The notes beneath the pieces are model-generated. The model was not told where the DNA came from. It ran no database searches and saw nothing but the letters and a program-made list of their open reading frames with translations. The translations under genes were made by a program, and so were the position numbers. Positions 57,536 through 62,171 of a DNA stretch of 64,000 bases are shown piece after piece; within the stretch, counting starts at the first letter, position 1; every line of letters begins with the position of its first letter. Origin of the DNA: Parvibaculaceae bacterium (lineage in GTDB: Bacteria; Pseudomonadota; Alphaproteobacteria; Parvibaculales; Parvibaculaceae). The DNA lies in assembly GCA_019636015.1 (NCBI GenBank), contig JAHBYJ010000001.1, forward strand, positions 496,001 through 560,000. The letters are read 5' to 3'.

Positions 57536-57548
57536 TAAGGATGTTCAT

Positions 57549-57842
57549 TCAACCGTAGATACAAGTCCGAAACGAAAAATCTTCTGTCGTTCCGTCTGTT
57601 CGATTGACCCAAAAACATCGAGTTCCGAAGCCGCCGCTGCGGACGCTAAAGTGGGAAATTCCGCAGCCAATTTTTTCAGTTGCCTCAGGGTGAAGAACAA
57701 GCGCCCCCATCAAGATCGCTGCATCGTCCGCGCTCACCTTGTCGCCCAAATCATATTTGTAGAGCATCACTTTCAAGTATTCTTCAGCATCACCCTTCTT
57801 GGCGAAGTGCAGTGAACCAAAGCTGATCGGCTTTGCTGGCAT
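57549..57842 (-). CDS. DUF3223 (DCL-like) protein, possible Hachiman-associated accessory gene
   Basis: A 97-residue protein. The blocks GSLHFAKKGDAEEYLKVMLY, then YDLGDKVSADDAAILMGALV, HPEATEKIGCGISHF and GTRCFWVNRTDGTTEDFSF match DUF3223, whose plant members (DCL) act in rRNA processing; bacterial function is unknown to me. I start at 57842 because GGAG lies 7 bases before that ATG; ATGs four and eight codons upstream are in frame. It begins 41 bases after the hamB stop on the same strand, shares the lower G+C, and is probably on the hamAB transcript. Confidence 0.72.
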   Translation of the reverse strand: MPAKPISFGSLHFAKKGDAEEYLKVMLYKYDLGDKVSADDAAILMGALVLHPEATEKIGCGISHFSVRSGGFGTRCFWVNRTDGTTEDFSFRTCIYG

Positions 57843-57883
57843 TTGATTCTCCATGATGAGCTTCAATCATTTGTCCACCTTCG

Positions 57884-60466
57884 TCAGGAGGAGAGTTTCT
57901 CTCGAATTTCCCGAAGGATGATCGCGGGAATGTCCATTCCCTCAAATTGTGATTCGCGCTCAGCAACCCATGCTAAGCAGTCTTCCTTACTTAAGTTGTC
58001 GGCGACGATTTTCTCATATAGCGCGACCGCGCTCATTCGCGACAACCCTAACTCCATCAATGAAAGCAGAGTGCGCGAGGATACGCCAAATTCAAGCTGC
58101 GTTCCGATATCGACGTCGGGGTCAATCAGGTCTTCCCTTCCTATCTCCCGCAAATGCCGACTAAGAACGTCCATGTAAGCAGAGAAATACTTTGGCGCTC
58201 TAAAGCGTGCCGTCTGTTCAACCAGCTCCATAGTGCTTCGGATTAATGCAGGCAGCGTGTAGGGCTTGTTGTTTTTTTTATGATAATCGATGTTCTTCCG
58301 GATCATTGCCGCCAAAGAGAAGCCACTAAGCCATTGGACGACGATCAGAGCATGAAGTGGGATCAATCCATCGGGTAAGAATGCGGGAAAAAGATGTTGG
58401 TTGATGCGCCGCATAATGGTCACGAAACGATCATAGCTATCTACGCTGTTAACCTCAGCAGGCAACAAATTTTCAACATCGCCTGCGTAACTTCGGAAGG
58501 CATCCAACAGGTGTTGGAGACCAAGGGCGCTAACGCCGGGATGACGGCCGGCGAGCTTCGCGTCGATTTCAACCTGTTCTGCTAGTAGAGCGAGACTCTT
58601 GTTTAGCCTCGCTACGGTCGCCGGATCATGGCGCTTCGCGAGATCGGCTTCCAATATCGATCCCAACCGCAGGTAAGAAGCAAGGAGATACGCTCCTACC
58701 TGCTCAAATTTGTCTGCATTGTTGATTTCAGTCAGAGCGACAGTGGCTCGGCGATCAAGATAGTCAGCCATGCTGTCGCCCATATCGAGGACTGTGTCAC
58801 TCTCGCGCTTGATCGGATAACGCAACCGCACCGGCACACCGCGAGGCCAAGCTTCTCGGTCATGCGGATCGATGCATATAATGTTACCTTGAAACTCATT
58901 GCCCCACCGGCCCGCCCGCCCGGCGAGATTCCAGAAGTCATGTGGCTCCATCGGATGTCCAACGCCCTTTCGGGGGCCGCGCAAGACAATAGTGCGGCAT
59001 GACAAATTGACACCCTCAATCAAGGTCGAAGTGCACACCAAGCAGCGGATCTTGCCTGAACGAAACAGGCGCTCAATCTCGAGTCGTATCAGTGACGGCA
59101 TATTGCCATAGTGGAAAGCAACGCCTCGCTCAACCAACGGCGCCAGCATAAAATTGGGGTGTACCCCCTTTCGAGCGAGGTCCGCCAACTCAACGAGCTC
59201 AGGATCAGGTGCCTCTGGCTGAGGGAGTAGCTGGCTGATCAAGTTGGCTACGTTCTCCGATTCTGCCGCACCAGAAACATAGACGAGCGTTCCACCCCGC
59301 TCACCCACTGCCGCAGCAATAAATGCGAGCCGCTTGCGCAAACCGGCAGGCGAGTTGGCCAGTTGAAGTGTGCCAACCGGCAACATCGCAGTTTGCTGAC
59401 GAACGGCAAGGCTCCATAGCTTTGGCTTGCGCGGAACCTGTTCGGCAACGATAACGTTCTGAAGAACCGTCGGTGCATCGCTATCTACGGCGGCTACGCG
59501 CACTCCCTCAGGTGCGTCAGCGAGAAGCTCCTCCGGATTTTGGGTCGCAGGGCTAATAAAGACCACTTTGAGTTTCGGATTGGCGCGGCTCGCGCGCTCT
59601 ACCGCATCTTGTAGGATAACGCCTCGTTGATTGTCTCCAATCTTATGTGCCTCATCCACGATCAACACATCGGTAGTGAATGCATCACTCAGGATATTGG
59701 CAAAGAGATGAAGCCGTTCCTGAGTAAACACCAGTATAAGTAACTTTCCACTTGCTCGCGCGGTATCATACTTGTCGCGCAATGGAAGTGAAGACACCTC
59801 GATGTCACGATCTTTGCCGAGCAGAGATAAGAGATTCCCCTCAATCTCTGAGACCAGAGCTCTGGTCGGGGCCAGATAAACCGCAACGCGGGCTTCGCTA
59901 GAACGAAGTTGGTCTATCAGCCACTGCAGTACAAGGAATGTCTTGCCCGATGCCGTTGGAGCTGATGCGGAGAGCCAATTGTGGTCGCCGGCATTGGACC
60001 AGAAGCGTTGTTGGAATTCATTAACTTGAAGCCATTGTCCGCTCGACTCTACGAGCACCGCCTGATCCATCTGACGCCGTTGTGCTTCGATACGCAATGC
60101 GATTCCAAGGCGGCCCTCAAGGTCGGGGGGAAGCAATTCGCGATCATTGGCGAGCTTAGTCGCACGGAAATTCGAAAGCTTGCCGAACAAAACCGCGCCA
60201 GCGTCTTTGATTGACTGCCTGTCAGAAAGCGATATGGCGCCAGTCGCAATTCGTAGTGCCGCCTCTTGATTTTCTCGAACATCGGAGCGAGCCAAAATAC
60301 TTCCGGTTAGCAAGAGTCTCGGCCAATCGATCGTTGAGACCGGGTCATCCCCTGGTTCTGTTATAAGATTGTCGAGCTCGGTCTTGACCGTACACTGCGT
60401 GATGGTGTCGAGGTCATCCCGGATACCCGTCTCGATCAGCCATGACTGGAGCTCGTTTAGATTCAT
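57884..60466 (-). CDS. hamB: Hachiman system helicase HamB
   Basis: An 860-residue superfamily 2 helicase. After an N-terminal region of about 145 residues without a recognised fold, the motor motifs are all visible: Walker A APTASGKT at 169-176, motif Ia LAPTRALV at about 198-205, DEAH at 271-274, motif III-like FISPATQN at 303-310, motif V CTSTLIEGVNLSC at 478-490 and motif VI NLAGRAGRWG at 513-522. About 330 further helical residues follow. In Hachiman, HamB senses invader DNA and restrains or releases the HamA nuclease. Its ATG overlaps the hamA stop (ATGA, 60463-60466). Base composition is clearly lower in G+C than the flanks. Confidence 0.88.
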   Translation of the reverse strand: MNLNELQSWLIETGIRDDLDTITQCTVKTELDNLITEPGDDPVSTIDWPRLLLTGSILARSDVRENQEAALRIATGAISLSDRQSIKDAGAVLFGKLSNFRATKLANDRELLPPDLEGRLGIALRIEAQRRQMDQAVLVESSGQWLQVNEFQQRFWSNAGDHNWLSASAPTASGKTFLVLQWLIDQLRSSEARVAVYLAPTRALVSEIEGNLLSLLGKDRDIEVSSLPLRDKYDTARASGKLLILVFTQERLHLFANILSDAFTTDVLIVDEAHKIGDNQRGVILQDAVERASRANPKLKVVFISPATQNPEELLADAPEGVRVAAVDSDAPTVLQNVIVAEQVPRKPKLWSLAVRQQTAMLPVGTLQLANSPAGLRKRLAFIAAAVGERGGTLVYVSGAAESENVANLISQLLPQPEAPDPELVELADLARKGVHPNFMLAPLVERGVAFHYGNMPSLIRLEIERLFRSGKIRCLVCTSTLIEGVNLSCRTIVLRGPRKGVGHPMEPHDFWNLAGRAGRWGNEFQGNIICIDPHDREAWPRGVPVRLRYPIKRESDTVLDMGDSMADYLDRRATVALTEINNADKFEQVGAYLLASYLRLGSILEADLAKRHDPATVARLNKSLALLAEQVEIDAKLAGRHPGVSALGLQHLLDAFRSYAGDVENLLPAEVNSVDSYDRFVTIMRRINQHLFPAFLPDGLIPLHALIVVQWLSGFSLAAMIRKNIDYHKKNNKPYTLPALIRSTMELVEQTARFRAPKYFSAYMDVLSRHLREIGREDLIDPDVDIGTQLEFGVSSRTLLSLMELGLSRMSAVALYEKIVADNLSKEDCLAWVAERESQFEGMDIPAIILREIREKLSS

Positions 60467-61440
60467 TTCTCTATCCCCATCGCCCTGAGGAACGCCCCGC
60501 GGAATTCGCTGGCAGATGGTAGCGGAAGGCAGAACATCTCTATTTCAAATTGGTGGAGCTTCTCAATTTTGAGGTGTTCCTCAATTTTTGTCTTCCAAGC
60601 TGAGATTTCACTCCGTGCAGCTTCAGCAAGCTCGTCCGCAACCGCTTTGACATCTTTGTCGGGGTAGAAGCTCGCATCAAATCCGACAAGGGCTACCCCA
60701 CAATACTGCACACGCTTAGAAAGCGTTGAGTCCTTATCAAAATAGCGCTTGAGTGCTTGCGTCAGTGACGGATCGCTAAGATCTGCTTTGTCGCTGAGTA
60801 GGATGAGGTCGCGCTCGCGCTCCGCGCCTTCATGCTCCTCCTCAACTAGGAACGGCGCCAGAGAAGCCAAACAATTTTTGATCGCAGCTCCGCTGTTTTG
60901 GTAGACTTTCGACTCTCCCCAATAGAGCTTCAGCATCCCTTCTTTGGTGACGCCCGCGTACACACCGTCCGCACCATGATAGTGCATCCTTCCGTCTGTC
61001 TTCAGGTCCATTTTGCAGAGTATCTGCGGCAGCTTGAGGAATCGTTCGGCCAGAAGAAAAAGGAGCATCTCGCCTCCTTCTCCTGTTGTGGCAATATCAG
61101 TGAAAGAACGCCGGGCCTCCTCCGTCAAAGCGGCGACGGCCTCGGTGCTATTGAACTTGAGATCGCGAGCCTTGGCTTGGGCAAGCTTGGATCGTGGAAT
61201 CGCGTAGTCGGCGACAGCATTGCGCATAAATTCAGCAAGTCGTCGTACTTGGGTACGCCCATTCCCATCCACAGTCAGGCAATGGCAATGAATTTTGACC
61301 AAACAGCCATCTATCAGAACATCACGCTCGACCAAGGCGAGGTGAACTTCCAACGCTTCAGGGTCCCCTGTTAGCGCTGATGTCAGGTCAGTTGTTTTTA
61401 TCGTGGACAGGCTATCCCCCTCTTTTTGCCCGAGTGCCAT
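60463..61440 (-). CDS. hamA: Hachiman system effector HamA (DUF1837)
   Basis: A 325-residue protein matching DUF1837/HamA. The PD-(D/E)XK-like nuclease core is at about 118-180: GEGGEMLLFLLAERFLKLP (120-138), D158 in YHGADGVYAG, and the ExK pair E176-S-K178 in YWGESKVYQ, followed by a helical C-terminus. HamA is the effector of Hachiman anti-phage defence, a nuclease controlled by HamB. It is first in the unit, coupled to hamB by a 4-base overlap. The start is the first ATG after the divergent glutathione S-transferase promoter region; the N-terminal 25 residues are not conserved enough to confirm it. Confidence 0.88.
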   Translation of the reverse strand: MALGQKEGDSLSTIKTTDLTSALTGDPEALEVHLALVERDVLIDGCLVKIHCHCLTVDGNGRTQVRRLAEFMRNAVADYAIPRSKLAQAKARDLKFNSTEAVAALTEEARRSFTDIATTGEGGEMLLFLLAERFLKLPQILCKMDLKTDGRMHYHGADGVYAGVTKEGMLKLYWGESKVYQNSGAAIKNCLASLAPFLVEEEHEGAERERDLILLSDKADLSDPSLTQALKRYFDKDSTLSKRVQYCGVALVGFDASFYPDKDVKAVADELAEAARSEISAWKTKIEEHLKIEKLHQFEIEMFCLPLPSASEFRGAFLRAMGIEK

Positions 61441-61514
61441 CTAGCAGAGTGCCCTAAAGAACGACGACAAATCTCACGTATACTAATACATATTCGCACC
61501 AAAGACCCCTCCGT
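61441..61514. promoter_or_regulatory. Divergent promoter region between hamA and the glutathione S-transferase gene
   Basis: Only 74 bases separate the two divergent starts. An A+T-rich patch at about 61475-61497 contains GTATACTAATAC, with GTAT/ATAC arms, and TATA-like hexamers on both strands. It must hold the hamA promoter, but I cannot assign -35/-10 boxes with good spacing. Confidence 0.35.
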
Positions 61515-62171
61515 ATGCCCCCCATCATCACAGCCTTTGAAGCCTCTCCCGACCGCGGCCGCGGGCTTGCCCGCGATACGCGCATTCGCTGGGCGCTGGA
61601 GGAGGCGGGGGTGGCTTATGAGGTGCGGCTTCTCTCCTTCGCGCAGATGAAGGAACCGGCGCATCTCGCGCTCCAGCCCTTCGGGCAGATCCCGACCTAT
61701 GAGGAAGAGGGCGTCGCGCTCTTCGAAACGGGCGCGATCGTGCTTCATATCGCGGAGCGCCATGGCGGGTTGCTGCCGGAAGACGATGCGGCGCGCGCCC
61801 GCGCGCTCTCCTGGATGTTTGCCGCCCTCAACACGGTCGAGCCTCCGATCCTCGAACGCGAGTCGGCGGGCTACGCGGAGCGGAACGAAAGCTGGTATGA
61901 GGCGCGGCTCCCCTTCATGGAGGCCCGCATCCGCGCGCGGCTCGAGCAAGTCGCCGCGCATCTCGGCGAGGCCGACTGGCTCGACGGCCAGTTCAGCGCG
62001 GGCGACCTGATGATGGTCTCCGTGCTGCAGAGGATCGCGGGCTCGGCGCTGCTGGCCGCCTTTCCCACGCTCTCATCCTATGTCGCCCGGGCCGAGGCGC
62101 GGCCCGCTTATCGCCGCGCTTTCGCCGCGCAGCTTGCCGTTTTCGAGGCCGCCTCGGCCAAAAAAGCCTGA
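61515..62171 (+). CDS. Glutathione S-transferase family protein
   Basis: A 218-residue cytosolic GST-fold protein. The thioredoxin-like N-terminal domain (about 1-85) has RDTRIRWALEEAGVAYEVRL, the cis-proline turn FGQIPTYEEEG and the glutathione-binding LFETGAIVLHIAE; the alpha-helical C-terminal domain has AGDLMMVSVLQRI. The substrate is unknown. The gene marks the return to normal G+C at the right flank of the Hachiman block and is divergent from hamA. Confidence 0.9.
   Translation: MPPIITAFEASPDRGRGLARDTRIRWALEEAGVAYEVRLLSFAQMKEPAHLALQPFGQIPTYEEEGVALFETGAIVLHIAERHGGLLPEDDAARARALSWMFAALNTVEPPILERESAGYAERNESWYEARLPFMEARIRARLEQVAAHLGEADWLDGQFSAGDLMMVSVLQRIAGSALLAAFPTLSSYVARAEARPAYRRAFAAQLAVFEAASAKKA

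Follow-up and report, generated by a model that had tools for sequence, protein, structure and literature searches.

A small gene, hamC, lies behind hamA and hamB in the stretch of Parvibaculaceae DNA analysed here (64,000 nucleotides, hereafter the window). Direct reading of the sequence gives an open reading frame of 97 codons on the minus strand, with its ATG at 57842 and its stop at 57549. The product matches PF11523 (DUF3223) at 85 bits (E 3.9e-24), above the Pfam cut-off of 21 bits, and the PADLOC HamC model PDLC00203, named HamC2 in PADLOC-DB, at 143 bits. An intergenic gap of 41 nt (57843-57883) separates the hamB stop from the hamC ATG, and 13 nt separate the hamC stop from the stop of the DUF2333 gene. 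Sequence reading thus confirms what the earlier note had described at this position, namely a DUF3223 gene that starts 41 bases after hamB on the same strand with its own GGAG site and ends 13 bases from the DUF2333 gene. An in-frame ATG four codons upstream (product beginning MENQMPAKP) is less likely to be the start, because homologues commonly begin with MPAKP, and its ribosome site is poor. A promoter scan ahead of hamC found no consensus site, which is weak evidence, and the gene spacing is compatible with a putative co-transcription of hamA, hamB and hamC.

The stop of hamA and the start of hamB overlap by 4 nt. The hamB product keeps the helicase motifs APTASGKT, DEAH and GRAGR, and the hamA product carries the nuclease motif D...GESK, with WGESK starting at residue 174; GExK is retained in 49 of 49 HamAs tested. 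All the genes of a Hachiman type II system are therefore found at the locus, that is, a HamA with D...GExK, a HamB encoded adjacent to hamA, and a DUF3223 gene beside hamAB.

Table 1. Coordinates of the features discussed, as positions in the window or, where an L number is given, in the respective locus.
Feature	Coordinates	Strand	Basis
hamC, 97-aa DUF3223 (DCL family) protein	57549..57842	-	PF11523; PADLOC HamC PDLC00203; fold match 2K0M
GGAG ribosome-binding site of hamC	57849..57852 (reads 57852-57849)	-	6 nt before ATG; direct sequence reading
hamB, 860-aa Ski2-like DEAD-box helicase	57884..60466	-	PADLOC HamB2 PDLC00200, 1387 bits; PF00270/PF00271
hamA, 325-aa HamA (DUF1837) nuclease	60463..61440	-	PF08878, 211 bits; PADLOC HamA2 PDLC00196, 495 bits
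Low-G+C insertion holding hamCBA, between DUF2333 and GST	57536..61514	.	G+C drop; empty site in three relatives
Lamassu-family ABC-3C operons (CTD9, MC5, LmuB-like ATPase), last gene DUF3223	L089:3288-6515, L092:4905-8291, L020:2979-6291		

The G+C content is 0.497 in hamC, 0.534 in hamB and 0.527 in hamA, compared with 0.65 in positions 1-56000 of the window, and third-position G+C (GC3) is 0.53-0.56 in the ham genes compared with 0.84 in DUF2333. Between DUF2333 and UspA, the window has the order hamC-hamB-hamA-GST. One genome of the same genus and two of other genera of the family have empty sites, with DUF2333 followed directly by UspA and NifU. Since these three relatives are without the whole block, hamCBA appears to have come as an insertion, and the three genes, alike in composition and strand, are best read as one insertion. 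The low G+C content that the earlier note had attributed to the DUF3223 gene in common with hamAB was borne out, and its suggestion that the gene arrived with the cassette is supported by the empty sites. The GST gene (61515-62171), between hamA and UspA, is also missing at that position in the three relatives; it has a native G+C content of 0.685, and its nearest same-genus relative is found on another contig.

From these analyses, and from the association throughout the clade and the divergence parallel to HamB described below, we conclude with near certainty that the locus carries a full Hachiman type II cassette, hamA-hamB-hamC, which was acquired as a single block and has the DUF3223 gene as its hamC. 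The combination of hamAB with a DUF3223 gene was named Hachiman type II, and the gene hamC, by Payne et al. in their 2021 PADLOC study, which reported 379 type II systems (3.8% of Hachiman) with the DUF3223 gene located either up- or downstream (PMC8565338). A three-gene system of Sphingopyxis (S. witflariensis DSM 14551) protects E. coli (PMC8565338). This system, which is locus L052 of our scan, shares with the window the three protein families, the gene order and the matches to the PADLOC models, and differs from it in sequence divergence only (73% identity for HamB, 62% for HamC). The HamA nuclease and HamB helicase motifs of Hachiman type I (hamAB; Tuck et al. 2024, PMC12278908) are likewise present in the window, but type I is without a DUF3223 gene, and the plasmid systems examined that have no DUF3223 encode HamBs at most 31% identical to that of the window. 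The earlier note had inferred a third Hachiman component from the sequence and knew of no described system joining hamAB to DUF3223. In view of the description by Payne et al., and with the matches to the PADLOC HamA2, HamB2 and HamC2 models, the inference was right and the suggested novelty falls. The PADLOC paper was the only relevant bacterial study on HamC, DUF3223 or Hachiman type II in the literature searched, and no functional assignment of HamC was found there, most subscription papers and preprints being outside the coverage of this search.

The association of DUF3223 with Hachiman was surveyed in genome samples of modest size. Among 385 genomes of the class, DUF3223 occurred in 5 and HamA in 13, and DUF3223 lay within ~6 kb of hamA in all 5 (hypergeometric 1.9e-8; with the window's own genome left out, 5.6e-7). 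Among 398 genomes of the phylum, DUF3223 occurred in 7 and HamA in 16, with the gene beside hamA in three of the seven and elsewhere in four. A scan of genome contigs with the HamC alignment gave 64 loci, two of which (L047 and L049) had no room upstream. Upstream of the DUF3223 gene, hamB or its remnant was found on the same strand in 50 of the remaining 62 loci (L051 having a remnant only), an ABC-3C operon in ten, and neither partner in two (L087 and L101). In 52 loci, the DUF3223 gene begins between -11 and 85 nt from the hamB stop. HamC homologues of 41-69% identity are encoded immediately after hamB in dozens of genomes that span five phyla, and because this placement is repeated so widely, the adjacency is not due to chance. 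The comparison with chance that the earlier note had called for thus speaks against a chance-only reading, and the survey supports a functional link between DUF3223 and Hachiman. That the gene is a passenger without a role in defence is very improbable, given a strong and position-specific association that recurs across several phyla.

The scan loci were selected by HamC, and the survey was therefore also run starting from HamB. A tblastn search of plasmids with HamB gave 16 full-length records of at least 52% identity, 18 records of at most 33%, and one fragment of 57% identity over 15% of the query. For the records of at least 52% identity, leaving out R. phaseoli NZ_CP013531 as one of two near-identical records, DUF3223 adjoins hamB or was found in the record concerned through a tblastn search with HamC; none was found beside the distant plasmid HamBs (at most 31% identity) in the seven loci examined. 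Among 397 genomes sampled from a Rhizobiales-like order, DUF3223 was present with HamBs of 71%, 71% and 44% identity and was not found with the HamBs of 30-33% identity in three genomes, while one genome (G1063, HamB 32%) has a DUF3223 gene upstream of hamA. DUF3223 is encoded upstream of hamA at L172:1336-4572, where the HamB lineage is 32% identical to that of the window and HamB is apparently split into two frames. At L166:4120-5577, an IS with its transposase interrupts hamC after ~11 codons, and the neighbouring hamA and hamB are intact. HamB and HamC distances correlated at r = 0.89 over 43 main-clade loci, with none of 2000 permutations as high, a correlation that can stem from shared inheritance without physical contact. 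No relative of HamB was found in a scan of viral contigs, and a scan with HamC gave only two loci; as far as these scans reach, Hachiman type II is not mainly phage-borne. A 221-aa protein of Sinorhizobium phage AP-16-3 (L178:4977-5642) matches HamC over 83 of its residues at 37% identity.

A phylogenetic tree of 91 DUF3223 domains, in which few columns were available and the fine branching is unsure, contains a main Hachiman clade of 54 rows (two of them without upstream sequence) with support of 100/99. A second HamB clade (43% identical to the window) has DUF3223s that fall outside it, as do the 240-aa DUF3223 forms adjoining HamBs of 53-61% identity; on these data, the Hachiman label must have changed at least three times on the tree. 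The same slot behind close HamB relatives is filled by different DUF3223 types, either short or of the 240-aa form. The Hachiman contexts of DUF3223 comprise the main HamB clade, the ~43% clade, the 240-aa forms with their HamBs, the position upstream of hamA in a locus whose HamB is 32% identical, and a Cap4-HamA fusion. As far as the literature was searched, the apparent joining of DUF3223 to Hachiman on several occasions is new beyond the work of Payne et al. The fusion, likewise new within that literature, is encoded at L163:4352-8539, together with HamB and a divergent DUF3223 protein that scores just under the Pfam cut-off and is matched by the PADLOC HamC models.

The 240-aa forms (L021:5989-6708, L022:6001-6687 and L024:6007-6744) have in common an additional domain at the C-terminus, in which the pattern C..TG...DH..P.F is conserved. 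A nuclease in this part was considered and rejected, as Pfam finds no family and the resemblance to HNH is by eye only. A second activity, a wider phage range or resistance to a phage inhibitor would make HamC an auxiliary effector or a counter-counter-defence component. The extra domain with its C..TG...DH..P pattern would suit such a role, as would the clade-restricted presence of DUF3223 and the swapping of its types between close HamBs, which are expected of a part in an arms race. In the 97-aa form, however, the alignment invariants, which include H51, P52, G61, F65, G73, C76, F77, W78, R81, D83 and F89, reveal no apparent catalytic set or known catalytic motif, and the sole strong fold match gives no function, which makes this role unlikely.

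That fold match is the NMR structure 2K0M of Rru_A0810 from Rhodospirillum rubrum. The AlphaFold model of HamC reached a pLDDT of 84.8 with 57 sequences and of 50 without an alignment, and it matched 2K0M with a VIA-align Z of 15.0 and an rmsd of 2.3 over 97 residues. The other PDB matches were at noise level only (Z at most 2.8, E at least 0.27), including an NTF2-like protein at Z 2.0, and the fold of HamC therefore gives no functional lead. The R. rubrum protein is 48-51% identical to HamC over nearly its whole length and was labelled HamC by Payne et al. (PMC8565338), but our tree places it with the ABC-3C DUF3223s, away from the Hachiman HamCs (support 81/84). The charge of HamC is near neutral (pI 6.3 in the window, family median ~8) and its composition is not clearly basic; DNA binding is therefore not evident.

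HamC shares homology with the DeCL domains found in Pol IV and Pol V of plants (E from 8e-10, for Pol IV, to 2e-6). This homology could point to an action on RNA, which the earlier note had thought conceivable, such as that of the DUF3223 portion in a La-related protein of Tetrahymena and that presumed for plant DCL proteins; removal of DUF3223 from Tetrahymena Mlp1 almost abolishes tRNA-mediated suppression. These eukaryotic homologues, from which the RNA reading is wholly derived, are distant, however, and both main bacterial partners of DUF3223, HamB and the LmuB-like ATPases, are DNA sensors or are thought to be, so that we regard a role in RNA as improbable.

The second of these partners was found in operons outside Hachiman. 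DUF3223 directly follows a CTD9-MC5-ATPase (ABC-3C; PF20285, PF20291) operon, or its ATPase, in ten scan loci, two plasmids and one viral contig, and the ATPases of the operons that end in DUF3223 match PADLOC LmuB at 140-156 bits. A review assigns ABC-3C to the Lamassu family, whose members are believed to act as sensors of DNA ends or hairpins (PMC10586767). These operons (e.g. L089 and L092) resemble the window in having a DUF3223 of ~96 aa right behind an ATPase gene, but have CTD9, MC5 and an LmuB-like ATPase as partners in place of HamA and HamB; no LmuB-like SMC ATPase with a middle component stands beside DUF3223 in the window. On two related Bradyrhizobium plasmids, an SMC-like ATPase is followed by a long DUF3223 gene. 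Within the literature searched, the ABC-3C and SMC-like ATPase operons with DUF3223 are new beyond Payne et al. The first gene of L089 encodes only CTD9 by Pfam, and DUF3223 was considered as the missing ABC-3C effector; this is opposed by L177, a close ABC-3C relative without DUF3223 whose ATPase is 46% identical. On balance, we lean towards DUF3223 being a portable accessory subunit of defence ATPases that sense DNA structure, probably acquired or exchanged on several occasions within Hachiman and separately ending Lamassu-family ABC-3C and SMC-like ATPase operons, and thus not specific to Hachiman.

How such a subunit might act can be considered from the type I system of Tuck et al. (2024), in which HamAB is a nuclease-helicase complex whose HamB surveys DNA; a free single-stranded DNA end triggers ATP hydrolysis, and the released HamA nuclease degrades all DNA (PMC12278908). 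HamC would be made from the same mRNA as HamA and HamB, as a small folded subunit, and may dock either on HamB, the ATPase that senses DNA, or at the site where DNA enters it. Docked there, it could tune what triggers HamA, or how easily. We tentatively propose that HamC is an accessory subunit that tunes the DNA-sensing complex in this way, with close to even odds, because the DUF3223 slot is kept, with the type sometimes swapped, behind both HamB and the LmuB-like ATPases; these have DNA-structure sensing in common but not their effectors. Against this mechanism, type I works without HamC (PMC12278908), and the basic mechanism can therefore do without it.

HamC might instead be an antitoxin-like self-protection protein that restrains HamA until infection, as its small size and its place as the last gene beside a nuclease, coupled at 41 nt, would allow. 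We consider this rather unlikely, because one relative in the order sample (G1018, HamB 65% identical) retains an intact hamA (GESK) and hamB (Walker A, DEAH) beside a hamC cut by an IS after ~11 codons, and because type I systems dispense with hamC, HamB itself restraining HamA (PMC12278908). Moreover, DUF3223 is found in operons that have no HamA. The G1018 locus thus favours an accessory subunit over an antitoxin, and Hachiman type II identity together with an accessory role of HamC is, in our estimate, the best explanation as a whole, at a probability of roughly 0.65.

The locus itself is thereby largely settled as another Hachiman type II system, and it is the function of HamC that would matter. 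RNA polymerases IV and V of plants also contain the DUF3223 domain. The occurrence of one DUF3223 family behind the ATPases of both Hachiman and the Lamassu family offers a concrete comparison between two sensors that differ in their partners but have one small protein in common. If DUF3223 is indeed portable, its use by unrelated systems would suggest a step that they have in common, such as the handling of DNA ends or of an activated ATPase. Should HamC bind either the sensor or its DNA, this would help to explain how toxic defence systems stay quiet or become armed.
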